DNA of 39,560 nucleotides, from assembly GCA_903854215.1 (NCBI GenBank), contig CAINVT010000033.1, positions 1 through 39,560 on the forward strand, in the 5' to 3' direction. Position numbers and translations under genes: made by a program. The notes beneath the pieces were generated by a model, which was not told where the DNA came from, did not search any database, and saw only the letters and a list, made by a program, of their open reading frames with translations. This document shows positions 1 through 34,489 of this stretch, one piece after another. Source of the stretch: an uncultured bacterium (GTDB lineage Bacteria; Patescibacteriota; Minisyncoccia; Phycocordibacterales; UBA2100). The stretch's first letter is position 1; each line of letters begins with the position of its first letter.

Positions 1-20
1 AAATAATGTACCCATTATTT
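1..20. terminator. inverted repeat, possible terminator of an upstream gene
   Basis: aaataatg-tacc-cattattt, perfect 8-bp stem at the window edge. Confidence 0.3.
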
Positions 21-130
21 GTGACAGTCGCCTTTGTGCCACGTCCTTAACGCTCACCGCAGTGAGCACATTTATGCACGAGGCCTATCGGCGACGATAT
101 ATAACCCATTTTGTGTAGTATTCTTGAGGA

Positions 131-14544: not shown

Positions 14545-14754
14545 TTAATTGGTAGCCGGAGCGGGCGTTGTCGGATTTGGTACCGTGACATTGATGTTTG
14601 TCGTACCAGCCGGAGCTGCGGCACCGAACACGCCGTGTCGATAGAAATAGATTCCACCCACAATGACTGCGACGAGAATGATGAGTGCGACAACCCACCC
14701 CACGGCGCTGCTGTCGTTCGTGCTCGGTGTAGTGGTGACGATTGTGTCTGCCAT
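14545..14754 (-). CDS. 69-aa single-TM small protein
   Basis: MADTIVTTTPSTNDSSAVGWVVALIILVAVIVGGIYFYRHG...; upstream of the lmo0937-like gene. Confidence 0.6.
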   Translation of the reverse strand: MADTIVTTTPSTNDSSAVGWVVALIILVAVIVGGIYFYRHGVFGAAAPAGTTNINVTVPNPTTPAPATN

Positions 14755-14895
14755 ATGAGAATGTACAAAATAGAGCGAGTAAGTTTTAACTGTACTTGTG
14801 AGAGGTTAAGTTATGATGAATTATTTTTCTCTTTGCATCCCGCCGATGCCGCAGCGTAGGTCGGGTATATAATGGGCATACGAGATTCGCTCAGT

Positions 14896-16849: not shown

Positions 16850-16929
16850 AGCGAATTTGTCTCGGTAATCATATCAAAAACCGGCGATGGAAATCACAAT
16901 AAAGTTACCTGACATCATTTTTTCACTCA

Positions 16930-17301
16930 TTATCCATTGTGAGCCGAAGAGTAAATTACTATCGCCTGTAAAAGACCGACTGTAAAAGTCGTAAGAATTA
17001 ATGCAATCGTTAGCCACTTACTCCAAAATACTGCTTTTCTACTCACCTTAAAAACCTCATCATTTGATGCAAGGATTTTCTTTGTTTGCTGTTCAATAGT
17101 TGTGCTTAATACATAGGTAAGTCCACTAACGTTTGCCGATAGATTCTCCATCGATTTTGCAGTTTTTTCTGCGGATTCGGCATTTAACAAACCAATACCA
17201 GTATTTACTTGATCGTGATTATCTCCATTAAAATTATATAAATCCGGACTAGCTTCCTGCATTATCTTTTCTAATGATCGCTGAATTTTGCTTTTTTCCA
17301 T
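16930..17301 (-). CDS. hypothetical protein with C-terminal TM segment
   Basis: MEKSKIQRSLEKIMQEASPDLYNF...; starts just after the upstream gene stop. Confidence 0.5.
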   Translation of the reverse strand: MEKSKIQRSLEKIMQEASPDLYNFNGDNHDQVNTGIGLLNAESAEKTAKSMENLSANVSGLTYVLSTTIEQQTKKILASNDEVFKVSRKAVFWSKWLTIALILTTFTVGLLQAIVIYSSAHNG

Positions 17302-17305
17302 GCGT

Positions 17306-17758
17306 TTAATTCTCCATGTATGGTTTAACAAAATTTTTAAACTTATCGAGGTCATATTTTTCAGTTGAACCTTCCTTATAGCTACAACTGCTTATATCGG
17401 GTGCGGCCGTAAAGGAATCACAAGAAGCTAGTGCTTTATTTTCATAAGCATTCCATAACTCGTCAGTCACTCCACCGGCACCAAAACCATGAATTAATAT
17501 GTAACATTTATCAAGACTACTGTTGTAATGATTTTGATAAGTAAGATTGTCAACGCCTCCATTATTACCACCTGTAATTTTGTCAAACGATTCACTGGCT
17601 TGAGTCGCGCATTTTTGTTGTGCATCAAGACTGCTCGTTTTTGCTTGTGGTGTATTTGTTGGCTGCGTTGAATTGTTTGAACTTTGCCCAATAAAATAAG
17701 CAGCCGCAACTGCAACTACGAACAGGAGTCCAGTCCCAATCCATGTTTTATTTTCCAT
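17306..17758 (-). CDS. small secreted/anchored Cys-containing hypothetical protein
   Basis: MENKTWIGTGLLFVVAVAAAYFIGQSSNN signal/anchor; conserved-looking Cys residues. Confidence 0.55.
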   Translation of the reverse strand: MENKTWIGTGLLFVVAVAAAYFIGQSSNNSTQPTNTPQAKTSSLDAQQKCATQASESFDKITGGNNGGVDNLTYQNHYNSSLDKCYILIHGFGAGGVTDELWNAYENKALASCDSFTAAPDISSCSYKEGSTEKYDLDKFKNFVKPYMEN

Positions 17759-17807
17759 ATTTCTATAGAGATTACGCCCAAAGGGACACTTTGCAAGCAG
17801 GAGGGAT

Positions 17808-17860
17808 GGTGCCAGGCACGTCAAAAACACAAAACTTGTGCCGTAATAATTGTTTTGCGG
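17808..17860. repeat. tRNA-Ser-associated repeat copy 1
   Basis: GGTGCCAGGCACGTCAAAAACACAAAACTTGTGCCGTAATAATTGTTTTGCGG. Confidence 0.75.
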
Positions 17861-17994
17861 TGTCGTGACGTTTCGAACTTCCATGGCCAACCCCCACAAG
17901 GGTTTTTGAGGGGCTCCAAGCCCACCCCACCGGGGGCTTGGCATAGGTCATATTTTGACTTGAATCGTGACATTTATGGGCGTACTGTAATCGT

Positions 17995-18654
17995 ATGGAT
18001 TACTTCGGACGCGTCGCCGATAACATCTTCCCAGTGAGCCGGGAAAAAAGCGACGTGCGCACCGCCCTTCGCGAATGGGAATATCACGATACCCACTACG
18101 ACACCGGCTATGCCTCAGAGATTTGTCAGCTGTGCAATCAGGAGGACATCCGTTACCAATTTGAGATCGTTAATAAATACAACGGGAACGAGCTCCTAAT
18201 CGGATCTCAGTGCATCAAGCGATACGACGATATCTCCGTTGTGGACGACACTGGAGTGCGACTATCCAAGGACCTCGCGCGTAAAAAAGTAGATCGAGAT
18301 CGTCGCAAGCTTATCACCGATGCTCAGACGAATAGCGTTCTAAGCACACTAGTGCGACTGAGCCGAGTGAAAGAGGGTGAGCAGATTGATTTCGAGGCGA
18401 TGCTCGAAACGTATCGTGAGCATGGAGCATTTTCTCCACGCCAACTCTTTGCCGTACAATTTCGTGCATCAAAAAACAACATCCCATGCCAGAACGGGTG
18501 CTTCAAGGTGAGACTACGTGGAAAGTGGAAGCAGCAACTCATGGAAATGGATGCGTGGCGCGTTGCTAAGATATACGAACTCCTGTCACCGCAGCAACGA
18601 ACTACTGTTATGCGCGCACGTCCCGACGCCTTTCCCTCGGACGCTAAACGTTAG
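17995..18654 (+). CDS. hypothetical protein with Cys motif (CQLCNQ...GSQCIKRY)
   Basis: 219-aa ORF between repeat copies 1 and 2; possible zinc-binding N-terminal region. Confidence 0.7.
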   Translation: MDYFGRVADNIFPVSREKSDVRTALREWEYHDTHYDTGYASEICQLCNQEDIRYQFEIVNKYNGNELLIGSQCIKRYDDISVVDDTGVRLSKDLARKKVDRDRRKLITDAQTNSVLSTLVRLSRVKEGEQIDFEAMLETYREHGAFSPRQLFAVQFRASKNNIPCQNGCFKVRLRGKWKQQLMEMDAWRVAKIYELLSPQQRTTVMRARPDAFPSDAKR

Positions 18655-18664
18655 CGGAGGAGTG

Positions 18665-18716
18665 GGTGCTAAGTACGTCAAAAGAACAAAACTTGTGTTG
18701 TAAAAATGCTCAGCGG
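18665..18716. repeat. tRNA-Ser-associated repeat copy 2
   Basis: GGTGCTAAGTACGTCAAAAGAACAAAACTTGTGTTGTAAAAATGCTCAGCGG. Confidence 0.75.
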
Positions 18717-18758
18717 GGCGTTCTATATTTCGATCAAAGTTGACACCTTTTTCACTTT

Positions 18759-18971
18759 TTACCGTACCCGCGCGAGTGCAGCTACTTTTCTGCGCGTCAT
18801 CAAAGCGACAGTAGCGTGTAAGCAGATGCCTGCAACCGGGTAGACAAGGTCTTGATATTGACCAGTCCATCTCAGGACGACTACGAGTGTGGTCATTCCA
18901 TACCCAGTTGCCCAGAGACACCAAGGTAAGGCCTTTTCGACCGTAGGGTTTTTCCAAACTGAGCGATACAT
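18759..18971 (-). CDS. 70-aa hypothetical membrane protein
   Basis: MYRSVWKNPTVEKALPWCLWATGYGMTTLVVVLRWTG...; sits between repeat copies 2 and 3. Confidence 0.4.
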   Translation of the reverse strand: MYRSVWKNPTVEKALPWCLWATGYGMTTLVVVLRWTGQYQDLVYPVAGICLHATVALMTRRKVAALARVR

Positions 18972-19114
18972 AGGAATGAATGAGATGGCAACTGCACCAA
19001 CGACAATGGGAACATTCCGTTACATCAAAATCTTCTGAATTGTCCGAATTGCGTGAAAGTACCGTGATACCTGCGACGCAGTTTGTCCCATCGACTCCAT
19101 TTGAACCTAGAATC

Positions 19115-19167
19115 GGTGCTAAGCACGTCCGAAGAATAAAAGTTGTGTTGTAATAATTAGTTGGCGG
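19115..19167. repeat. tRNA-Ser-associated repeat copy 3, overlapping the tRNA 3' end
   Basis: GGTGCTAAGCACGTCCGAAGAATAAAAGTTGTGTTGTAATAATTAGTTGGCGG. Confidence 0.75.
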
Positions 19168-19249
19168 AGAGAGAGGGATTCGAACCCTCGGTGGGTTGCC
19201 CCACGCACGCTTTCCAAGCGTGTCCTTTAGACCACTCAGGCATCTCTCC
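19162..19249 (-). tRNA. tRNA-Ser (anticodon GGA), CCA encoded
   Basis: minus strand GGAGAGATGCCTGAGTGGTCTAAAGGACACGCTTGGAAAGCGTG...GAGGGTTCGAATCCCTCTCTCTCCGCCA with long variable arm. Confidence 0.95.
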
Positions 19250-19256
19250 TCTGCAT

Positions 19257-19568
19257 TCAAAGCTTTGATCTAGCACCGACTATTCTCTGCATATTCTTCG
19301 GATTATGTGAGCCCACAACATCCATGTACGCCATTATATCGGCAAACGAATATATGTACACTTTTGTCTCGTTTTGCAAAGAACATGCAATACCGTGTTC
19401 GTGTAATATATCCATCACTCCCTTAATGATAGGGCGCGAGTGATTCGAGAACGGCCATCCGATATACGTGCGTTTTTCTTTCTTATGGCGATAGATGCCG
19501 CCGTCAGTATCAAACAATCCCCGTAGACACGCCCGTTGGTACTTCTTATTTGTCAAAATCCACACCAA
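19257..19568 (-). CDS. half-size LAGLIDADG homing-endonuclease-like protein (single motif)
   Basis: RACLRGLFDTDGGIYRHKK...SFADIMAYMDVVGSHNPKNMQRI; TTG start; AGGAGG upstream. Confidence 0.7.
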   Translation of the reverse strand: MVWILTNKKYQRACLRGLFDTDGGIYRHKKEKRTYIGWPFSNHSRPIIKGVMDILHEHGIACSLQNETKVYIYSFADIMAYMDVVGSHNPKNMQRIVGARSKL

Positions 19569-21378: not shown

Positions 21379-21960
21379 TTAGAACTGCACCTTCACCGGT
21401 TCCTTTGCTGCCGCATCGGCTTCGGAAAGCTGGAAGAAATCACTTTGCTTGAAACCGAACATACTGCCGACAACATTGCCCGGAAATGACTGCAAACGTG
21501 TATTGAGATCCATGACGACGCTATTGTAGAAGCGACGCGCGGCTTGCATCTTGTTCTCGGTATCAGAAAGCTCTGTCTGGAGCGCGAGGAAATTTTCGTT
21601 CGCTTTCAAGTTGGGATAATTTTCGGAGACCGCAAAAAGTGATTTCAAGGCACCGCTCAACATGTCGTCGGCCTGCGCTTTGCCAGTCGGCGTCGTCGCG
21701 TTCATGGCCGCGGTGCGCATCTCGGTCACCTTCTCGAGCGTGCCTGACTCATGTGCGGCATACCCCTTGACCGTTTCAACGAGATTGGGAATAAGATCAA
21801 AGCGGCGCTTCGATTGCACGTCGATGTCGGAAAGCGCTTCCTTGACGCGGTTGGTAAGCGTGACAAAACCGTTATACGACAGAACGAACCAAATAATAAG
21901 TATCGCAACAACCGCCAAAAGAATAAATGTAATCATATGCGGGAATTGTATCATCCGCAC
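21379..21960 (-). CDS. lemA: LemA family protein
   Basis: FVLSYNGFVTLTNRVKEALSDIDVQSKRRFDLIPNLVETVKGYAAHESG. Confidence 0.95.
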   Translation of the reverse strand: MRMIQFPHMITFILLAVVAILIIWFVLSYNGFVTLTNRVKEALSDIDVQSKRRFDLIPNLVETVKGYAAHESGTLEKVTEMRTAAMNATTPTGKAQADDMLSGALKSLFAVSENYPNLKANENFLALQTELSDTENKMQAARRFYNSVVMDLNTRLQSFPGNVVGSMFGFKQSDFFQLSEADAAAKEPVKVQF

Positions 21961-21976
21961 CGTCGTACGCTAGCGT

Positions 21977-24900
21977 TTATGGAACCGATACCGTCGTCGT
22001 CGCGATCACTTTCTGACCGATAGGATCAGTACACACCGCAGTAAATATCGTCGTTGCGGTGAGTACCGGAGACTTTGCAGTGCTACTGGTTGCCTGCGAG
22101 CCGATCTGCGTCCCACTCGGATCGTTAACCGTACAGATCGAAGCGTTCACCGATGTCCATGAGAGGTTCACGGTGCCGCCGGAGGCGATATGTGCAGGAT
22201 TGGCGATCAGGGCGACGGTCGGATTCATCGCCGTGGTCGATGTCGCGGATTTCGGTGCGGAAGCGGGCGGGACGATACTTACATAACACATCACCGGCGC
22301 CGTTTGCTGCATTCCCGAGATACACGAGAGCGAGAACTGGAGCACACCGGATGCATTCGATGGCACTGAAACCCATGTAGTCCCATATGAAAGTCCATTG
22401 GTTGAAAATCCGCTTGAGACCGGGGTGCCGGAAAGACATGACCATTGAATCGAGATCGGAACCGTAGTCGGCATGGTCACAGATGTTGGCGAGCACGAGA
22501 GTTGCGGGGTGCCAAGCGGTGTCAGCATCGGCTGCGAGAGCGGTGATGGGGTTGGCTGTTGAGCGGACGACTGCGGGAGCTGCATGGCAGGAGCGGTCGG
22601 CTGTTGAGTAGACGGGGCTGTTTGTGGTGCTGGCGCTGTTTTTGGCGCGGCTTCAGCAGGATTTTTGGATGACGGTGCTTTTGTCGGCGTTTTCTCCGGT
22701 TGAACGACCGGCGGCTTCGCCACCGGTGGTACTGGCAGCTTCGGTGGATTAGGAGCAGGTGCAGGGATAGGGGCGGGTGTTGGAGTTGGAGTTGGTGTTG
22801 GTGAAGGATGATTCGACTGCGTTAGCTGAGTATTACTCGGCGCCCAGAGACCATTCCAAAGATTCGATACCCACGAATACGCTCCGTAACCAATAGCTGA
22901 GCAGATGCCGAATCGAATGATTCCACCCGTACAAACGCCCGTTGCAACCTTCGCAACACTCCGTGCAATACCGGAACCACCGTTTGAACTTCCACCAGAA
23001 CCGCCACCACCGGATCCCCCACCGCCCGGCGGAGTCGGAGGTATCGGCGGTGTACCTCCTGTGCCTCCGCCACCGAGCGTTGGAGTAGGCGTGGGAGTTG
23101 AGACCGGTACTACGACGGGAATCGGCGTTGAGGCGACTGGCTGCGGTGCCGTTCGTACCGAAGGTGAAGGTTGCAGCGGCACGGGCGTGACCGGAGAAGC
23201 TTCTTCATTTTTTGATGATCCTGCTGCCGGAGTCGGTTCGGTCACGGACGCAGTCGCGACGGGAGGTGTTTCAACGGTCTGCCCTGCTGCCGGAGTCGGT
23301 TCTGATACGGGTTCGGTCGCGGCGGGTGTCGGTGCGACTTGCGGCGCAGGGGCGGATGTCTCCGTAGCGGGAGCGGTCGCGTTCGTACCTTGCAATACCC
23401 CGCGCACGCGCGTAGCGAGATCGAGCACGTCCGCACGATAAGAGCCGTTGAGAAGAGAGCGATATCCGGTATTCAAGATCGGCCACACGAGCGTTCCAAA
23501 TGGCCCTGCGACACTGTGCGCCACGGAGAAGGTGACAACGTTCACCGCGACATTGCGAAACACCGTACTTGCCGGAAATACGGCTCCGCGAAGCACTCGC
23601 ACGAAGAGTGTCGTGTTGTTCCAGATGGAATTCGTCGTGGGCGCGGCAGGTGTCGTTGCCTCCGATGTCGGAGACTCAAGCGGCTTCACCTCCGGCACAG
23701 TTTCGACCTTCAAAACGGCCAAAATTGGTGCAACGGCCGAGGATGAGACTGGCGCCACTACCGGAGCTGTGACCGATTGAGATGCCTGCTCACGAGCTGT
23801 GCGCGCAGCAACGTATTGCTGAATAACAGGAATTTTTGAAAGGTAGTTCTGGTACATATCGACATACGAATTCTTTCGCATCGAATCATTTCCATACCCG
23901 CCTGTTTGATCCGTTGTCTGCGTTTTGTATTCATACGCAGGAGTAGTCAGGTCGCCGCCGCTTACCCACGATTGCGTCAGCCCGGTCGGCTGTACATCCC
24001 CGAGATAACCGATTCCCCCGATCCAAACTCTGCCATCGAGAGCCGTATTGAACATGTATACGAACTCTCCATTGTTTGAAGGAAATACTTCAACCGAAAC
24101 GGTGCCGTACAAAGTCGTCTCTTGTTTCCAACTGGTCACCAGCCTTGAGAAGTCAGGCGACTGGTCATGCGTCAAAACCATGTCTTGCGGCGCAGTCTTC
24201 CCTTGCATCGCATAAAAATCTCCATCCAGAAGAATAGGGTTTGCATCAACCTGTTGATAGTAATCGTAGTGACGGCTTGTCTCCTTACCCCTGACTTCGG
24301 TAGTGCCCGCGAAGACAAATTCAGGATTATCAAACTTCAAGACGGGCGTGCCGGCTTGCGAGATCTCAGAGAGCGCCTGTTGAATTTCGAACGGAAGTGT
24401 GATGCTTTCCTCTCCGTATCCCTTCCCATACAACGTAACCTCTCCTGCAGGATTTGCTTCATAGTCTGGCAGGTATCGCCACACCCCCTGTGAGTTACTG
24501 CGATAATATGATTGCGCCGTGATGAAATATCCATCTTTGTTGACGTACGCAACAACAGCAACGTATCCATCGCCAAGATCGTAGACAGGAGAGAACGCCA
24601 CCGAAACGCCTGCGACATCGACTGATTGCGTCGGAGTCAGACCTCTTTGTCGGAGATCGTCTGTAGACAAATACGTGTCCAGTAAGGGGTCTCCATAAAT
24701 CCTTGTCGCTTCAAGAATTTGTTCGCCTTCTTCGGGAGAAAGTTTCTCGAGCTGCACGTGCACCAGCGGCTGGTTCGATAGCTGTACGGCCGGTTCCACA
24801 CGAGTGGTTTGTGTAGATGGAGCTACGACGATTTTTGAGAAGTCTACCTGCTGCGGCCTGATGTTGAGCAGCAACGATTCTGTGAGTTGTGACTGAGAAG

Positions 24901-27900
24901 GAGTAAACGGATTCGTTAAGACGTTTTTTGGCAGTGGCACTCCGGACACTGACGACTGAGCAAGATTCGCTGGAACGTTGTCTGTTAACGATACTGCGAG
25001 ACGGTCGTTCTGACCCTGCAGCTCTTCGTAATACTTCAAGGCGGCGGAGACTACCGGGTCTTGGACGAGAAGGCTTTGCCGTTCCGCGCTCGAAAGCAGA
25101 TTCCAATTTTTCACGCTCCGGCTGTCAGCGGCTTCGACCTGCTGTTCGGCACGGAACAGATCGAGCCGCGCAATGAGCGCATCAACTGCCGCAGTCTTGT
25201 AGACATCGCTCTTTTTTGGAATCTCGTATCGCGTGGATGTCTTCGGGTCCGTATAAGAATCCGGCGATGGTGGCACCATATTCAACAGCGACGATTGCAC
25301 AAGCTCCGTCTCCGTAGGCTCGTAGATGCTCGACAAGTCTATTCCGGAAAGCTGACTGCCGGAGGTATCCGATGTAGGCGCTGGGAGCCGCAGCAACGAA
25401 GTATCCGGTCCGGCCAGCGCGAGCGGCGATGGCGGGGTTTGATACGAAGTCGTGAGCTGCGGTAGTGCAGTAACGTTCGGACCAGTCACGGCCAGCCATG
25501 ACGGTTTCTGATTTGAAGTCGTGAGCTGCGGCAACGGAGCGTTCTCAGTTGCTGGTAACGCGGCTGGTGCTTTTGGCGATGGCGATGCGGTGACCGAAGG
25601 AGCGTTGTTGGTCTCGTTTGCTGTGACGCCACTTGGCGCGACATTCGACACGTCACCGAGTATGACGTGGTATACGCCGTCGGGACCTTTCACTGTATTG
25701 AAGTTCTGCACGCCCGATGGGATAGCTTCTGGATTGTTGTCCAGATATATCTGCGGAGCGGGCGTGTAGGTCGTCGCGTATGTGAGTGAATTATTCGCGT
25801 CGGACCACGGAACGAGTTGTGTCGGACTGTTCGCAGTAGTCATTGCGGAAGATTTTTCCAACACCGCTTCCGGCTCCTGCATGCGGATACCTTCTGGAGT
25901 GAACGCGACATATTTCCATGGAGACGGTGTCTGTGCCGGATTGCTCGCTTCAAACCAAGCGATCGCGGGAGATGGCACTGGCGACACAGTTGCACGTGCT
26001 GTTTGCGGCGCGGCTGCCGCTGGCACTGGCACTGAAGCAACCGCCGGGACTTCGGGCAATGTAGGTGTCAGTTGATTCTGTGCGAACTTAACAGATTCTT
26101 CGGTGTTCGGCACAATAGTGTCAGTGGGTTCTGGTGCTGGCTGCGAAGAAGCCGTAGCAGGTGTCTCCAGGATCGGCACCTTAACGGATGATGGGGACGG
26201 CTGCGGTACGACCGCCGCAACTGTCGGAGCCGGGGTCTGATTTACAGCGCCAACAGGCACATTTCCAGCAGCAGGAACCGTTGCCGGAGCCAACGACCGG
26301 GTTTTGTGATGTGCTAGAGCTGCCAGAATCTGACTGTCAGTAACGACCCCTGCATCTGCAGGAGCAGCCGGAGACGGAGCAGGTGTTGCTGCAGCGACTT
26401 GCACAGGAGCCGGAACAGATGCCGTGAAAGAAAGACCTTTGTTAAATTGGACTCCTGCAACTTTCAAATCGATAACGAATCCCGGTTGCGGGACAGCGGC
26501 GACAAACGAGAATGGAGTCACGAGCCGCACAGCGGGCGTGGCAGAGCGGGTCGATGCTGCCGAATTCGCGGGCGGATAGCTCGCCTGTATAGTGACCCTC
26601 TGCGCTGGCAGTCCCGCAACGACAGTCAGTGGCGTAGTTGCGACCATTGCGTCCGATGCGACATTCTCCATATCGGTTATCGCTGCGAGCGCAGTGTCAC
26701 CAAAAAGCGACGTGACCGCAGCACGATATGCTGCCACGAGCGTCGGTATATCCGTTACCTCCGTAGCAGCTGCACTGAATTCGCGACGCGAATTTTCGTT
26801 CATCGCATTCACCATCTGCGTCTCATCGTAAATGTTAATGGTGGCATTCGGCCCCTGGAGACCCGCCGCGGCGGAAATGGTCCGAGCCATCGATTCTGGA
26901 TCATTACCATTACTACGCGGAGAAAGACCCGCCAATGTCGGTGTACCGGCCAAGATAGTTTCCCATGTGGTCGCACCTCGCTGGAAGTGCGCGAACACAT
27001 TCATGAAATACGCGCGTGCACCATTTTGAGCGCTATTGAAACAAACGAAACCGCCGATACTACAATTAATAGTTCCTTGCCAGTTATAAAGTGCGTACTG
27101 TCGTATGTTCCCAAAATTATATCCTCGATTGATGAGTTGTTGCGCCGCAGCACTGAGTGGTTTTGTTGGAGCTGAAGCGGCAGTCGGTGCAGACGTAACA
27201 GCTATTTTGTTCGGCGGCGCTGGTGTTGCTGCCGGTGTTGCGGCTGGGATGGGAATCTTTGCTGCGCTTGGCGCCGGTGCCGAAGCTGGAGCGGGCGTTG
27301 GAGTTTGAGAGGCGGCGGGAGCCGGAGCAGGTGTTGATACAGTTGCAACTTTGACAGGCACAGTTGTTGGAGCAGCGGCAGGTCCAGCTAATGTTCGAGT
27401 AGCCTCTTTAATTACTGCAGGCGGAGCTACAACGGGAGCTGGAGCAGCAGCCGCTTTTGCTTTCGCCTCTGCAACAAGCTGATTCATATCAGTAGCAAGC
27501 TGGTCGGTTTTTGGCTTCATACTCGCTAGTCCCATGAGGGAGAATATGCTCTTGGTCTCGCGATAATTAGTGAGTGCTCCCTGAAGCGTACCGATATATT
27601 GATTTGCACGACTGATGATACTTGTTGCAGAAGTTCCGAGATTTCCGCTGGTATCCGGAACACGAGCAGCAATTGAGGCGAGTTTTTCTGTCGCTTGCAG
27701 TGCCGCTATGCCGTTTACTAATGCGCCGTCATAATCGCTTCCGTTATAGGCAGCGGTCGCGCGCGCAGCAGCGCCGGATATCTGCGCTTGCGCTGCATTC
27801 ATACTTGCGATCGCCGTTGGGCCTTGCACTGCTGGCGCAGCCTCCGCCGAAGAAATCGGACTAAGATTCGAAGGAAGATTTACGATGGGTACACCTAAGA

Positions 27901-30900
27901 AAAGCGAAAGAGCGAGACCAAAAGGAGCTAACGCTCGGGTGATCGGAGATGTTGATTGCGGCGCTGGTGACACAGTTGGGCTGGCAGCCGGTGCTGGCGC
28001 AGTTATGGGCGTTGTGGCAGTCAAAACAGGAATGACACCTGAAACGTTTTGAATTCGTTTGTTTCGAGGTACATAATTCGGATTTGCTTTTAAATAGGCG
28101 TCTCGAAGCGACTCTGCATCTGGCGCTCCTGCAATCATGGCGTCAATCATTGCCTGAAATTCCGGACTTCTCCAAATCGGAACTTCAGAGGTAAACCATG
28201 AATATGGATACTGCAAAACATCGGGAGTAAGGGGACCATACCTACTTATTGCGTAAGGACTACTGAAAGGATTGGCATCCTCGTTGGGCACTGCGATTCT
28301 AATCAATGTCCCATTTGGATTGTTTCTTAAAAAGAAAAGCGCCCCGTCTGGCGAACTAGTAAACTGCTGATCGCTCTCGGGTACCGCATAAGGTTGATCT
28401 ATGCCCCGATACAAGTACGTATATCCCTCTGGCACTTGTTCACCCTTGATAGCGTCGATTACATCCGGGGTCAGAGCTTGTGCAGGAATGGTTTCAGCAG
28501 AGAGTATCGGGGAGTCCGCTGGAAGGCTCAGTTGAGTAAACGCAACATTAACGGTGAGGGGTGGCGTAGCGGACGGAGTCGGTGACACTGTCATCGTCGG
28601 AGTCAACGTGGTTTTGCCAGTAAGGAGTGAGACGATGGGGGCGGTTACGGCTGCTATTTTCGCCGCGATTGCTTGGACCAGGGTCGGTGTAGGCAACGGA
28701 TTCGCAGGCGCCGCTCCCGCTCGTGCAACAGATGGGGCGGTCTCGCTGGAAGGTGCGGCGCTCGCGGCTGGTGCAGGTGCGGGTGCGACAGTTGCAACTT
28801 CGGGGGCTGGCGCTGCCGCAATCGGCGCGGGCGTTGGGGACACTTGATTTGTCGTTTGGGGGGCCGCTGGCTGCGTAGTTACTGGTGCCGGATTATTTGC
28901 AACGGCGACTGGCTGCGGTGTCTGCTGCACGATGCTCGGTGTCGGCGATTGCACCATAGCAGGCGCGGTCGCTCCCGCAGTCGGCCCGACAGGACCTTTG
29001 GCCGAAAGGTCGGATACGCTCGCGGCGGCATGATTCGAAGTGCTCGGCCACTGTCCGATCGTAGCGAGGACCATTTTGTTGAATGCGTCTATCTGCTTCT
29101 GCGCTTCATTCCAAGCATCGTTCGACGCAGGAGCGGAATTGAACGGATTGGTATTCACTGGTACTTCGATTGGCGCAGTCGGGTTGGCAGATACGGATGG
29201 TACTGGCGCGGCGGAAGCGACAGGTACAGGATTGTTATTGTCATTCGCCGCGGCAATTCCAACATTGGTACTGGCGGCTACCGTTGGGATTTCAACTGTC
29301 GCCACGATGTCATGCGACACCGATGCAATAGCTCCTGTCAAAGGCAGTGCGACAGTTGCTCCATTCGAGCTCGCGATTATCGCGCCAGTGAGCAATTGCT
29401 GAAGACCGCGGGCGTCGAGATTTTGAAGTGCGGCCGTTACATTCGCATCCGCCGCAACACTGATCTCGTGGGCAGTATCTACACTGACGTCCGCAGGAAT
29501 CGACTCTGCTCGTACAGCCTCGGCCGCATCCAATTCTCGTATTGCTGTATCCTGGGCAAACGTTATGGTAGGGTCGGCGTACGCAAGGGCCGCACTGCTC
29601 ATGGAATCAACTTTTTCCGCAATCGTCGGAAACGGCGTCTCTGCTGGAGCCACTCTCATATTGGTAAAAGGATTTTCCATAACAGTGCGCTCCATAACCA
29701 ATGGCTCAGCGCCACGCGCCGCTTCTGTTGTCACAGAAGATGCTGATCCTGCAGATGTCGGAGCAGGCGATGAAGGTAACGGGCCTCCCGATCCCGAGTA
29801 TGATCCACCGTTTCCAAGCTGAGGCTTCACACTTGTCTCGCCGTTTAGCGCAGACTTGAGTTCACCAAGATTATCTGCCGTAACAATGACTCCCTTGTAG
29901 TTATCGATCGCCTTGAGCTGGTTTGCAGTAATAGTATCAGCGAGAGACTTCTGCGCATCCACTATGGCTTGCGATGCATTGACCGCCGGATTGGTAGCAG
30001 CAACTTGGTCGAGCGCTTGAACGATTTCTGGATTCGTTATCGGCGTAATGGTGCCTGTAGTGGGATCTATCTGGGCATATCGCGCACTTGGGTCGTTCGA
30101 GAGCTTTGCATACTGCGCTTCCGATGCGCTTCCCGCAGAATCGTCGAGCAATGTTGCGCCGCGAGCCTGAGATACTTGTGTGATGTCGCTCGCATTCAAA
30201 ATGGGGCCCGTATATTCCCGAGCAGCTGCAAGAGCATCGGCATGATTGAGCGCGGCGACTCCGTTTTTCAGATCCTGCGCATTACTCAGAGCCTCGCCGA
30301 CCGTCAGTAACGGATTTTCTCCCGCAGTGATTGTCGCGATAACGTTTGAATTAGTGATAGGCGTCAACGAACCGTCGGTACCGATCTCATAAACACTGCC
30401 CGCGCTCGCCTTGATGTCTGCGGGCGTTGCGGTGAAGGAGACAGCGCCTGTTTCGGAATCGACAGCAAAGAAATCGGCCAGTGATGATTGGTCGACCACG
30501 ATGCCGTACCGGACCCCGAACGCTCCTCCGGATTTTGCTGCCTGCTGAAGTCCCGCAACATCACCACCAGAAAGCACGGCTCCTGAATATTCCTTTGCAG
30601 CGGTGACCGCCGCAGTGTTAGCCGTCATATCGCTCACTGCCCGCTGTTCGGCATCAAGTGCTTTCTGTAGCGCAGCAGTGCTTTGTGCATCGGCGACCAC
30701 TTGTGCGGCTTCGATTTGCGGATTCACCGCAAGTGCATCGGCAACAGCACCATCGGCATCTTTGATTGAAACGAGTGACTGAGATCCTGAATCAATCTTA
30801 TATACTCCAGTAATGTTCCCCTTACCATCAATGATAGCGGCGTACTGAGCATCAGCCGTACCACCCGATGCAACCGCCTTATTGAGATCTTGCATCGTGG

Positions 30901-33900
30901 AACCTGTGACAACATCACCCGAATATACCTTCGCGGCCGATACTTCATTTGCGCGTGCAGCTGCAGTATCTGCAGCTGTTTGAGCCGCAGTCATTGCATC
31001 TGTTTGAGCGACGACATCCGATGCGGTGATTTGTGATAGACCTTTTGCCTGCAGTGCGTCTGCGATAGCACCATTAGAATCTGCGATCTGCGTTACAGCT
31101 CCGTTGAGCGCATCGTATTCATACACACCGGTAATCGATCCGCTACGATCTACGGTGGCAGCATATCCAACGTCCAACGCACCCCCTGAACGCGCGGCCT
31201 GAGAGAGTTCCTGCACCGTTGATCCTGTAACGACACCGCCATTGTATGTATCGATCTTGGCAAGCTGACCCGCCTGAACCTCTGCAGCTACTGCATTCGT
31301 TGCTGCAGTTTTGACCGCATTCGCATCGACGGACACTTGCGAAGCGGCAACTTCAGATAACCCCGCCGATTGAATCTTATCGATGACTGCAGAATCTGTA
31401 ATTGGCGAGAGAGACACAGTGCCATCTTTGATGCTGTAATTGTAAAATTGAGGGGTGGAGCTAAGATCGGCCCTCGCGATACCTTCCGCTGGAATCACCT
31501 CAGCTTTGACCCCAGCCGCAAGACTGTCCGTCAACTGCGACGGCGTACTAGCTGTGACGACGGGCTGGCCTTGCGTTTGATAGGTATTTATTTTAGTCAA
31601 AGCGTCTGCCTGCGCGTTATCAGCGGCAAAAACAGCAGACAATTTCGAATCGGCGATGACGGCGGTCGCGGCAATCGTCGGCACTTCTTTTGCTACAAGG
31701 GCAGTCACTTCCGCATTCGTAGCTGGAATGAAAGTACCACCCGAAACTCTATAATAGGTATCTCCAACCTTCGCATATTCCGCCGCCTGAGCTGTTTGCA
31801 ATGTTGCAGTGGGCGTCGATGCGGCCGCAGCGGGCACTTCGGAAACATTCTCTGCAGCAGTTGCTACTGAAACTGCCGGAGGTGTCGCAGCAATCGCTTC
31901 TGGCGTGGTAGCCGCAGCGACACTAAATGCGCCATTGGTGCCCTGTACAGCATCTAGAATGATTGGCTCAACCGGCGGTAACACTCCGCCTGCAACGGAT
32001 GTGATTCCTACAGTTTCTCGAGTTGCCACAGTCTCTGGAGCAAGACTTAATTCATTGACAACGGCCAGACGGGCGTCGTTATATACGGCAGGCGCAATGT
32101 CGCTCCCGAGAATAGGAAATCCGTTGGAAAGAACGGACTTTGCAGCCGAACCAACCACCAACATGTTGAGTGCCGTATTAGCTCCTGCCTCCGTGCGTGC
32201 TGTAAAATTTTGCAAATCAGTCTGCACTGTTGCATTCGCCCATTGTGTCGGCGTTGTCGGACCATTGAAAGTAAGTAATCCTTGATCAAATGCAGTGGAT
32301 GGGAGCATGACAGTACTATTCCAGATCGCCTTGGCGAAAGGATCACCCATGTATGAAAGGACTGCCCCAGGCGCGGCGAGTTTATTAGCAACCCACGTAT
32401 ACGCTGCATCAGTTCCCGTTTGATTGCCAGTCATCGCATTAATAGCTTTTTGCTGGTCGGCCGGAAGCGGAGTCCCATTGTTGATATTCGCCGCATACGA
32501 TTGAGCGTTTCGAATAAGATCATCGGTATTAACCTTCGACGCGGCGGAATAATCGTCGCTTATATTGGACTGCATTATCGTTGCTGTATTAACGATGGAT
32601 GGAGAGGCGCCAGCCGTAACCTCCGGTAGCGTTGCCTTCGCGATCACCGCTGCGCTCATATTTCCGGTCATAGCCGACTGTTCGGCGGCAATCTGTGGCG
32701 TCGTCGCGGGCGCGGCCAATGCTTGCGCCATCGCATCAGCTCCTTGGTAATTTTTCACGATGTATTCTGCTGCGGCACCATACGTATCTTTCCGCGCCGC
32801 ACTTGCATCAATTTCACTTTGAAGATGGTTGATCTGAGCATCAACAACATCTGTCGACAGTCCCGCCATTGCTGCTTTTTGACTCTTCAGAACATCAATG
32901 GCAGACTGATCCGTCGCGATCAAGGTATCCTCGGCTGTGATCGCTGCCCCGTACTTGACAAGTGCGACATTCGACGGACTTGAGAATGTATTAAGCGCGT
33001 TTACGTTCTGATTGTATGTATTCGCGTCAGTGGCATATTTCATTGCCTCCAGATCCGCACCAGTCGCCGGCGGAGACCAATATGTCGCGGTCAGACTTCC
33101 GGTCTTTGGATCGTACTGGTAGCCGTCGAAGACGTACGCCGAGTTGAATGAAGCGTAATAGTTTTTCCAATCAGAACTCATGCCGGACGTATCTACAGTT
33201 GCCGAGGTACCGCCAAGCAGATTGGCATTTGAGCTGAACAGATCCGCTTTGGACTGACCAAAACCTCCGGTTATTTGATAGGTTTGATTGTTCGTGTCAT
33301 ATGCGTTTGCATCCAAAGAGAGCGGGAATGTAGTATTGGGGCCAATTATTCCTGACGGAGTCGCCCACGGAGAGCTATTAATATAATCCCGAGTTCTCAC
33401 GTCTGTATTCAGCACTAAGGTGTCTTTATTTATCACATCACCAAGTTGTTGCTGTTTTGCAAAGGCATCAGCCGCAGCATTCGTTCCATTCTGCACGCTG
33501 AGTTGTGGATCCGTCTCAAGCGAAGAAGAATGCGGAGACGTTAAATTGAGATTCTGGGCATCAGAAGTATCCGGCGAAATTGTACTAACGACCGACGCGA
33601 CCCAATTTCCCGCAGTCTTTAATGCGCTCACAACGGACGACTCAGTTTTTGCGAGTGCGCACCCCCAGCTGCAAGCCTCTGTATTCGCCGACACGGACGG
33701 AGTCGGCGCACCTGATCCAAAGGTTGAAGGAGCATCTGTTGGAGTCGGGCTCGGTGTTATTCCTCTTGAATTCGGTGCATCTGTATTCGGCGGCGACAAT
33801 TGCGACACCTGCTGGATAGTGTCATTCGTGAGATTCACACCCTGTCCGTTCGGCGGAGTGTAGGTCGGGTTTGGTGATAGTGCATCTGGAGAAAAAGGGA

Positions 33901-34390
33901 TCGATGGCTGCGCGGCGGGCGCGGTCACTGAGGGGGTGGGGCCGCCAACGTTGTCAGGCGACGGCAATGCGGAATTTTCAAACGTGTCCGCAGGCTTAGT
34001 CGATACCGGCGCCACAGAAGCAGGTTGTGCCGTTTGAGAATAATCAGCTTGGCCATTCGCGCCGATTGCTGCGGGCGGCGGCATGTACGAAGATAAGGGC
34101 TTGGTCAGCTGAGGCGCTTTGCCGCAGGCACTCGTATCATTGCAATGATTGGGTGCATCACATACCCCCGAGACAACGCACGAATCTTTAACTTCCGCGC
34201 ATGGTTTGTTGCGCATACATGGTTGACCATCCTGATGATTCGGATAATCGCATGAGTAGAGTCCTGCGGTGCATTGAGCATCAGCCGCATCTAGCGCATA
34301 AGCAGTGCTGATCATCGAGCATCCGGATATGGCAAGCGCGAAAAATGCACCGAATACGTACAGAAAAATCGTACCGCGTTTGCGGGTCAT
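21977..34390 (-). CDS. giant (4137 aa) multi-module lipoprotein-like surface protein
   Basis: single uninterrupted ORF; lipobox-like LAISGC; Pro/Ala/Thr linkers separating repeats and globular modules; C-terminal Ig-like domain. Confidence 0.9.
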   Translation of the reverse strand: MTRKRGTIFLYVFGAFFALAISGCSMISTAYALDAADAQCTAGLYSCDYPNHQDGQPCMRNKPCAEVKDSCVVSGVCDAPNHCNDTSACGKAPQLTKPLSSYMPPPAAIGANGQADYSQTAQPASVAPVSTKPADTFENSALPSPDNVGGPTPSVTAPAAQPSIPFSPDALSPNPTYTPPNGQGVNLTNDTIQQVSQLSPPNTDAPNSRGITPSPTPTDAPSTFGSGAPTPSVSANTEACSWGCALAKTESSVVSALKTAGNWVASVVSTISPDTSDAQNLNLTSPHSSSLETDPQLSVQNGTNAAADAFAKQQQLGDVINKDTLVLNTDVRTRDYINSSPWATPSGIIGPNTTFPLSLDANAYDTNNQTYQITGGFGQSKADLFSSNANLLGGTSATVDTSGMSSDWKNYYASFNSAYVFDGYQYDPKTGSLTATYWSPPATGADLEAMKYATDANTYNQNVNALNTFSSPSNVALVKYGAAITAEDTLIATDQSAIDVLKSQKAAMAGLSTDVVDAQINHLQSEIDASAARKDTYGAAAEYIVKNYQGADAMAQALAAPATTPQIAAEQSAMTGNMSAAVIAKATLPEVTAGASPSIVNTATIMQSNISDDYSAASKVNTDDLIRNAQSYAANINNGTPLPADQQKAINAMTGNQTGTDAAYTWVANKLAAPGAVLSYMGDPFAKAIWNSTVMLPSTAFDQGLLTFNGPTTPTQWANATVQTDLQNFTARTEAGANTALNMLVVGSAAKSVLSNGFPILGSDIAPAVYNDARLAVVNELSLAPETVATRETVGITSVAGGVLPPVEPIILDAVQGTNGAFSVAAATTPEAIAATPPAVSVATAAENVSEVPAAAASTPTATLQTAQAAEYAKVGDTYYRVSGGTFIPATNAEVTALVAKEVPTIAATAVIADSKLSAVFAADNAQADALTKINTYQTQGQPVVTASTPSQLTDSLAAGVKAEVIPAEGIARADLSSTPQFYNYSIKDGTVSLSPITDSAVIDKIQSAGLSEVAASQVSVDANAVKTAATNAVAAEVQAGQLAKIDTYNGGVVTGSTVQELSQAARSGGALDVGYAATVDRSGSITGVYEYDALNGAVTQIADSNGAIADALQAKGLSQITASDVVAQTDAMTAAQTAADTAAARANEVSAAKVYSGDVVTGSTMQDLNKAVASGGTADAQYAAIIDGKGNITGVYKIDSGSQSLVSIKDADGAVADALAVNPQIEAAQVVADAQSTAALQKALDAEQRAVSDMTANTAAVTAAKEYSGAVLSGGDVAGLQQAAKSGGAFGVRYGIVVDQSSLADFFAVDSETGAVSFTATPADIKASAGSVYEIGTDGSLTPITNSNVIATITAGENPLLTVGEALSNAQDLKNGVAALNHADALAAAREYTGPILNASDITQVSQARGATLLDDSAGSASEAQYAKLSNDPSARYAQIDPTTGTITPITNPEIVQALDQVAATNPAVNASQAIVDAQKSLADTITANQLKAIDNYKGVIVTADNLGELKSALNGETSVKPQLGNGGSYSGSGGPLPSSPAPTSAGSASSVTTEAARGAEPLVMERTVMENPFTNMRVAPAETPFPTIAEKVDSMSSAALAYADPTITFAQDTAIRELDAAEAVRAESIPADVSVDTAHEISVAADANVTAALQNLDARGLQQLLTGAIIASSNGATVALPLTGAIASVSHDIVATVEIPTVAASTNVGIAAANDNNNPVPVASAAPVPSVSANPTAPIEVPVNTNPFNSAPASNDAWNEAQKQIDAFNKMVLATIGQWPSTSNHAAASVSDLSAKGPVGPTAGATAPAMVQSPTPSIVQQTPQPVAVANNPAPVTTQPAAPQTTNQVSPTPAPIAAAPAPEVATVAPAPAPAASAAPSSETAPSVARAGAAPANPLPTPTLVQAIAAKIAAVTAPIVSLLTGKTTLTPTMTVSPTPSATPPLTVNVAFTQLSLPADSPILSAETIPAQALTPDVIDAIKGEQVPEGYTYLYRGIDQPYAVPESDQQFTSSPDGALFFLRNNPNGTLIRIAVPNEDANPFSSPYAISRYGPLTPDVLQYPYSWFTSEVPIWRSPEFQAMIDAMIAGAPDAESLRDAYLKANPNYVPRNKRIQNVSGVIPVLTATTPITAPAPAASPTVSPAPQSTSPITRALAPFGLALSLFLGVPIVNLPSNLSPISSAEAAPAVQGPTAIASMNAAQAQISGAAARATAAYNGSDYDGALVNGIAALQATEKLASIAARVPDTSGNLGTSATSIISRANQYIGTLQGALTNYRETKSIFSLMGLASMKPKTDQLATDMNQLVAEAKAKAAAAPAPVVAPPAVIKEATRTLAGPAAAPTTVPVKVATVSTPAPAPAASQTPTPAPASAPAPSAAKIPIPAATPAATPAPPNKIAVTSAPTAASAPTKPLSAAAQQLINRGYNFGNIRQYALYNWQGTINCSIGGFVCFNSAQNGARAYFMNVFAHFQRGATTWETILAGTPTLAGLSPRSNGNDPESMARTISAAAGLQGPNATINIYDETQMVNAMNENSRREFSAAATEVTDIPTLVAAYRAAVTSLFGDTALAAITDMENVASDAMVATTPLTVVAGLPAQRVTIQASYPPANSAASTRSATPAVRLVTPFSFVAAVPQPGFVIDLKVAGVQFNKGLSFTASVPAPVQVAAATPAPSPAAPADAGVVTDSQILAALAHHKTRSLAPATVPAAGNVPVGAVNQTPAPTVAAVVPQPSPSSVKVPILETPATASSQPAPEPTDTIVPNTEESVKFAQNQLTPTLPEVPAVASVPVPAAAAPQTARATVSPVPSPAIAWFEASNPAQTPSPWKYVAFTPEGIRMQEPEAVLEKSSAMTTANSPTQLVPWSDANNSLTYATTYTPAPQIYLDNNPEAIPSGVQNFNTVKGPDGVYHVILGDVSNVAPSGVTANETNNAPSVTASPSPKAPAALPATENAPLPQLTTSNQKPSWLAVTGPNVTALPQLTTSYQTPPSPLALAGPDTSLLRLPAPTSDTSGSQLSGIDLSSIYEPTETELVQSSLLNMVPPSPDSYTDPKTSTRYEIPKKSDVYKTAAVDALIARLDLFRAEQQVEAADSRSVKNWNLLSSAERQSLLVQDPVVSAALKYYEELQGQNDRLAVSLTDNVPANLAQSSVSGVPLPKNVLTNPFTPSQSQLTESLLLNIRPQQVDFSKIVVAPSTQTTRVEPAVQLSNQPLVHVQLEKLSPEEGEQILEATRIYGDPLLDTYLSTDDLRQRGLTPTQSVDVAGVSVAFSPVYDLGDGYVAVVAYVNKDGYFITAQSYYRSNSQGVWRYLPDYEANPAGEVTLYGKGYGEESITLPFEIQQALSEISQAGTPVLKFDNPEFVFAGTTEVRGKETSRHYDYYQQVDANPILLDGDFYAMQGKTAPQDMVLTHDQSPDFSRLVTSWKQETTLYGTVSVEVFPSNNGEFVYMFNTALDGRVWIGGIGYLGDVQPTGLTQSWVSGGDLTTPAYEYKTQTTDQTGGYGNDSMRKNSYVDMYQNYLSKIPVIQQYVAARTAREQASQSVTAPVVAPVSSSAVAPILAVLKVETVPEVKPLESPTSEATTPAAPTTNSIWNNTTLFVRVLRGAVFPASTVFRNVAVNVVTFSVAHSVAGPFGTLVWPILNTGYRSLLNGSYRADVLDLATRVRGVLQGTNATAPATETSAPAPQVAPTPAATEPVSEPTPAAGQTVETPPVATASVTEPTPAAGSSKNEEASPVTPVPLQPSPSVRTAPQPVASTPIPVVVPVSTPTPTPTLGGGGTGGTPPIPPTPPGGGGSGGGGSGGSSNGGSGIARSVAKVATGVCTGGIIRFGICSAIGYGAYSWVSNLWNGLWAPSNTQLTQSNHPSPTPTPTPTPAPIPAPAPNPPKLPVPPVAKPPVVQPEKTPTKAPSSKNPAEAAPKTAPAPQTAPSTQQPTAPAMQLPQSSAQQPTPSPLSQPMLTPLGTPQLSCSPTSVTMPTTVPISIQWSCLSGTPVSSGFSTNGLSYGTTWVSVPSNASGVLQFSLSCISGMQQTAPVMCYVSIVPPASAPKSATSTTAMNPTVALIANPAHIASGGTVNLSWTSVNASICTVNDPSGTQIGSQATSSTAKSPVLTATTIFTAVCTDPIGQKVIATTTVSVP
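26775..27135 (-). other. internal phage-lysozyme/P5-like peptidoglycan-degrading module of the giant protein
   Basis: NRGYNFGNIRQYALYNWQGTINCSIGGFVCFNSAQNGARAYFMNVFAHFQRGATTWETILAG...ESMARTISAAAGL. Confidence 0.5.
27825..27955 (-). other. internal signal-peptide-like hydrophobic segment of the giant protein
   Basis: ITRALAPFGLALSLFLGVPIVNLPSNLSPISSAEAAPA at about residue 2150. Confidence 0.45.
28050..28440 (-). other. possible ADP-ribosyltransferase-like module of the giant protein
   Basis: GYTYLYRGIDQ...QFTSSPDGALFFLRNNPNGTLIRIAVP...WFTSEVPIW. Confidence 0.35.
29830..31790 (-). repeat. about six tandem ~110-aa protein repeats in the giant protein
   Basis: recurring (Y/T)Y.G.VV(T/L)(G/A)S....L..A..SG......YA...D..G.I..(V/P)(Y/I).......ADAL.....I.A.....DAQ. 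Confidence 0.75.
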
Positions 34391-34398
34391 ATTGTTGC

Positions 34399-34426
34399 TT
34401 CATAATACCAGAGAAATGCACGTCAA
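34399..34426 (-). promoter_or_regulatory. putative promoter of the giant gene (leaderless)
   Basis: minus strand TTGACG-N16-TATGAA, 8 nt before ATG. Confidence 0.45.
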
Positions 34427-34489
34427 ATGCCTATAAATCAGCACTTCTGAGGATTACTTAGGGCGAATATCGGGGGCGTAGCGCATACC

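Follow-up and report, generated by a model that had tools for sequence, protein, structure and literature searches.

RAYT-like genes with terminal inverted repeats that include a GGGGWSAS motif, designated TIRtrons or TIRYT, are accompanied by single, dimeric and grouped copies of these repeats elsewhere in the genome (Di Nocera et al. 2013, PMC3733652). Most TIRYTs are in subclass 2.1 of the TnpA-Y1 proteins, and Y---NP is the class-2 Y signature (PMC6006769). According to PMC6006769, subclass 2.1 corresponds to group 1 in the RAYT classification by Bertels et al. 2017. Published REPs that are tagged with an unpaired CGTC possess stems of 8-9 bp and loops of 4-5 nt, and have no associated transposase (PMC3733652). 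The three repeats considered here are located in a 39,560-nt stretch of DNA, referred to as the window, from a tiny, Kaiserbacteria-like genome (G000) that comprises 1.10 Mb in 73 contigs and is 97% complete. They are very probably (probability ~0.87) solo terminal repeats of ~45 nt that belong to a single subfamily of tyrosine (HuH, Y1_Tnp) transposase elements of the REP/TIR-associated type (RAYT/TIRYT TIRtrons).

An earlier note on this DNA had placed repeats at positions 17808, 18665 and 19115, and the assignment was borne out: the copies share one orientation and are spaced by 857 and 450 nt. The third copy indeed is situated at the 3′ end of a tRNA-Ser gene and, as the note also had stated, a recombinase is not apparent in the part of the window that was examined. 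The features of the locus are:

17803..17860, plus strand: repeat copy w1, read as a solo terminal repeat; core GGTGCCAGGCACGTCAAAAACACAAAACTTGTGCCGTAATAATT; 69.9 bits by the 58-nt model
18660..18717, plus strand: repeat copy w2, likewise read as a solo terminal repeat; GGTGCTAAGTACGTC...; 62.6 bits by the 58-nt model
19110..19167, plus strand: repeat copy w3, likewise read as a solo terminal repeat; GGTGCTAAGCACGTC...; 69.3 bits; the inner end abuts or overlaps the last ~6 nt of tRNA-Ser
19162..19249, minus strand: tRNA-Ser(GGA); the 3′ end is one edge of the region that varies in comparison with the closest relative
16924..19162, no strand: variable segment of 2.24 kb; holds all three repeats; unrelated DNA in the closest relative, G024
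17309..17758, minus strand: 150-aa ORF left of w1; N-terminal TM segment; low GC (0.38)
17995..18654, plus strand: 219-aa ORF in the w1-w2 interval; without a Pfam match; sporadic in distribution
18759..18971, minus strand: 70-aa ORF in the w2-w3 interval; doubtful coding status

Over the first 44 nt, w2 and w3 match w1 at 35/44 and 34/44 positions, respectively. The best match to w1 in 200 Markov-1 control sequences of 4 kb each, which had the dinucleotide make-up of the real DNA, was 29/44 with a mean of 22. The T-A/C-G change that had been viewed as compensatory sits in the 3-nt loop of GTGC-YAR-GCAC, where the pair would span a loop of 1 nt, and the claim was set aside. No pair in the 4-bp stem is altered on both sides among 19 copies and the covariation score equals that of shuffled sequences; the predicted single-strand folds of the repeat also are no more stable than those of shuffles. 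The sequence TTCGA, which had been attributed to all copies, is confined to the three window copies. As the C61 and C10 copies described below lack TTCGA, the sequence does not belong to the repeat and was ruled out as the mark of a shared att core.

The 219-aa and 70-aa proteins that the repeats were said to enclose do exist as ORFs, but the smaller is questionable as a gene and produced only a sub-threshold match in a Pfam search in which the 219-aa protein had none. Among 396 other genomes of the order, one has a homologue of the 219-aa gene (42% identity). The stretch retrieved around this homologue lacks the repeat, and a link between gene and repeat was rejected for that genome. The ORFs have no fixed direction relative to the repeat: of those that are bounded by repeats in the window and on C10, some run with the repeat and some against it.

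The 58-nt covariance model returned 12 matches in G000, 10 of which do not flank a transposase. Besides the three copies in the window, matches are located on contig C10 (2326, 3245 and 3725, plus a partial copy at the contig start), on C61, C64 and C46 (one each) and on C51 (two). The genome scan that the note had advised thereby revealed a dispersed family with many copies outside the window, of which only the three window members had been recognised before. Most copies are not at tRNAs, and CGTC adjoins the palindrome in the majority. The repeat is present in 4 of 69 other genomes of the family with one or two matches each (5/70 when G000 is counted). A strict pattern scan of the GTDB contig collection, from which records near the window's genome may be missing, matched 1 contig, labelled Candidatus Kaiserbacteria and apparently identical with C7 of G024; a strict pattern scan of viral contigs gave no match.

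The three C10 copies are identical over the first ~50 nt. A unit of ~80 nt (GTATCGGTGC...GAACC) was observed in G000 and G024 (L011 on C10, 2305-2390, 3225-3305 and 3705-3790; L099, 4855-4963), in which the first ~50 nt are almost invariant and a tail of ~30 nt has diverged. This tail lies beyond the common repeat in the C10 and G024 copies and, between the C10 copies, is more diverged than the repeat. It is unaccounted for by the terminal repeat, and its similarity to transposase start codons does not exceed that of shuffles. Short tandem partial copies adjoin the repeat copies in G024 and G053. Another dispersed repeat was noted at window positions 1-86, which recur twice on C10 (L011:6538-6626 and 14705-14781) with 90-94% identity.

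The two C51 copies are inverted and bracket L018, a Y1_Tnp (RAYT-like) transposase gene. The inverted repeat at L018 (37 nt, 78%) includes GTGCCAGGCACGTCAA and the tail. The most similar transposase of species G032, with 64% identity, also is bracketed by two inverted copies (L029:1501+ and 2183-), and one transposase in G058 has two head-to-tail repeat copies at a single end. The transposase matched Y1_Tnp (PF01797) with an E value of 2e-17 and NF047646 REP_Tyr_transpos with an E value of 4e-22 and 78.7 bits, which is just below the cut-off of 80. The protein possesses the HxH (NHWH) and Y---NP (YIERNP) signatures.

As circularity had to be avoided, a further model, R2, was built from seven solo copies only and was searched over 27 transposase loci. 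Its top matches all were to ends of the closest three transposases: L075 (E 4e-5), L074 (two ends, E 0.002-0.003) and L076 (E 0.02). The next match, an end of L077, was at chance level (E 0.65) and yet is at the corresponding place. More distant transposases of the genus end differently, e.g., with GGGGACAGGCAC, AATGGGGTCAGCCACCATT or GGTGTCAGGAACC, and the type of repeat therefore goes with that of the transposase. As inverted copies flank Y1_Tnp genes in both G000 and G032, and R2 ranks the ends of the closest transposases first, the repeat most probably is the terminal repeat of a TIRtron. The C51 transposase gene is outside the window, and its two ends diverge from the solo copies more than the solo copies do among themselves. 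Therefore, the solo copies may have been spread by a different element, either unseen or lost. The proposal that the start of the transposase coding sequence is contained in the solo copies was rejected since their similarity to it was not above that of shuffles.

Nine Y1_Tnp genes are present in G000: L018 on C51 and eight more (L019-L026). Inverted or palindromic flank repeats are found at all nine loci, mostly as a pair ~670-730 nt apart, with a different sequence at each locus. At the eight further genes, complementarity in the flank repeats is 100% over up to 28 nt and 98% over up to 55 nt.

The full element has two inverted repeat copies around a transposase gene of ~210-219 aa. The short palindrome GGTGYYARGCACSTCAA in the outer part of the repeat is the presumed site of transposase binding and cleavage, and in relatives the inner part (GTRTAATA) immediately precedes the start of the transposase gene. 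If IS200/IS605 and RAYT systems are a guide, the enzyme would recognise the hairpin in single-stranded DNA, would cut at the hairpin foot and would mobilise repeat-bearing DNA. Solo ends would stem from partial transposition, deletion or decay, and would be retained in clusters where accessory DNA is free of constraint, as in the variable segment on the 3′ side of tRNA-Ser. We infer the single-strand mechanism and this origin of the solo copies, as well as the lack of a mechanistic role for adjacency to the tRNA.

The elements fit the TIRYT/TIRtron kind and may belong to subclass 2.1. HuH and Y---NP signatures, inverted flanking copies (L018, L029) and dispersed solo copies, which characterise TIRYT/RAYT elements, all were found. 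In common with TIRtrons, the Y1_Tnp gene encodes ~210-220 aa and has inverted terminal repeats, single and grouped copies are present in the genome, and related transposases here have ends of the GGGGACAG/GGGGTCAG type that fit the published GGGGWSAS motif. In contrast, the motif of the present repeat is GGTGCCAG/GGTGCTAA, which makes a short palindrome; a Kaiserbacteria-like Patescibacterium is the host; and whole genes separate the solo copies, which are grouped in same-orientation triplets. The GTAG-tagged REP/REPtron (RAYT) systems likewise combine an HuH Y1 transposase with palindromic repeats, both flanking and dispersed, whereas the stem here is only 4-5 bp, the copies are few (12), and among the listed copies no GTRG guide was found directly on the 5′ side of the palindrome. 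The likeness to CGTC-tagged REPs extends to the four letters CGTC only: here the C is within the 4-5 bp stem and a transposase is associated. Identity with CGTC-REPs was rejected as the stem does not fit the published families.

The variable nature of the DNA around the repeats emerged from comparison with G024, in which the tRNA-Ser is identical (87/87 nt). Synteny between the window and G024 extends to position 16923 and resumes at 19163. At the matching place (L098; C16 of G024, 83000-93060), G024 has an unrelated island of ~10 kb that encodes a large serine recombinase, an HNH protein and an N6/N4 methylase, and the 3′ flank of tRNA-Ser therefore is an insertion hotspot. The comparison with relatives that the note had advised thus revealed different DNA beside the same tRNA in G024, but no copy of the repeat in the ~10-kb island. 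On its left, the variable segment extends ~880 bp past the nearest repeat and, therefore, is not delimited by the repeats. No second tRNA 3′ end was detected in the window, either with ≤3 mismatches over 24 nt or at ≥15/20. Just upstream of tRNA-Ser, window positions 19257-19568 hold a fragment of a LAGLIDADG homing-endonuclease-like gene; the G024 gene is longer and the window version has an internal deletion of ~702 bp at 19563.

Other repeat loci also are in variable DNA. No counterpart of C10 is present in the G024 stretch beyond the tRNA-Arg at 17659, the copy at 4886 on C7 of G024 is outside the stretch common to G024 and G000, and the surroundings of the C61 copy lack a good G024 match. 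An orthologous repeat copy is joined to different segments at the mraZ-linked locus on C46 of G000 and on C4 of G024: in G000 the repeat directly follows the terminator of the left gene with 3 nt of common sequence at the junction, whereas in G024 a segment of ~1.1 kb separates the left gene from the repeat. The repeat is identical in kind to transposon ends, is dispersed, and has a variable neighbourhood. As a separate observation, window positions 21977-34390 encode on the minus strand a 4137-aa ORF that is rich in Ala, Pro, Thr and Ser and has an apparent signal/lipoprotein start; the syntenic G024 stretch has no nucleotide match to positions 21879 to 34476.

Other explanations for the repeats were weighed. 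As w3 abuts the tRNA 3′ end, and the DNA 3′ of the tRNA is wholly different in G024 where the serine-recombinase island resides, the copies might be remnants of att sites left by repeated integration of phages or islands into tRNA-Ser by a tyrosine integrase. This is very unlikely given that the tRNA 3′ end is unduplicated in the window, that most repeat copies are away from tRNAs, and that the G024 island is devoid of the repeat. Still less credible is an integron-like (attC-type) cassette array in which the repeats are recombination sites, the single-gene segments are cassettes and a tyrosine recombinase is the mover. In common with attC arrays, single-gene segments are bounded by direct repeats in the window and on C10, the cargo is accessory and variable, and the orthologous repeat at C46/C4 adjoins different segments in two species. 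However, the sole Phage_integrase protein uncovered in a genome scan of this 97%-complete assembly is of Xer type, on C64, and integron models scored far below the cut-off, so the search for a tyrosine recombinase recommended in the note yielded no integron integrase. Furthermore, GTTRRRY/RYYYAAC attC core boxes are absent around the window copies, ORF orientation varies relative to the repeat, and the repeats serve as ends of Y1_Tnp elements.

The repeats alternatively might be RNA or regulatory elements, either terminators or promoters, that are kept for host function instead of being mobile ends. The inner part does resemble a -10 box upstream of transposase starts, but the folds are no better than shuffles, covariation is lacking, and the spread is very patchy (5/70 family genomes and 1 contig in the GTDB collection), which makes this the least probable of the explanations. 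The preferred interpretation as solo ends of TIRtrons retains part of what the earlier note had advanced as site-specific insertion at a tRNA or a minimal cassette array: the mobile-element origin and the variable accessory DNA 3′ of the tRNA stand, but the mechanism does not as the repeats are ends of Y1_Tnp elements.

When ten copies are placed at random, two same-orientation triplets that each fit within 1.4 kb, as in the window and on C10, arise with a probability of about 5e-6, and such clustering is not predicted by simple random transposition. Accumulation in accessory regions combined with a tendency to insert near existing copies plausibly underlies it, in line with the tandem partial copies in G024 and G053 and the head-to-tail copies in G058. 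The clustering and the bounding of genes are the sole unusual aspects of the system; the type of element is already known. The triplets in the window and on C10, as well as the differing segments at C46 and at C4 of G024, also are the basis for the view that solo Y1 (HuH) ends act as boundaries for the gain, loss and exchange of single genes, whereby a reduced Patescibacterial genome would have a cassette-like array that works without an integrase. This view is unlikely to be correct.

A literature search on transposases of this type in the candidate phyla radiation recovered no paper. The data describe a reduced genome with at least nine Y1 transposase genes that have flank repeats, and a dispersed repeat that is tied to one transposase subfamily across species. 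If gene capture between solo ends were true, it would provide reduced genomes with a means of gene turnover that needs no integrase.
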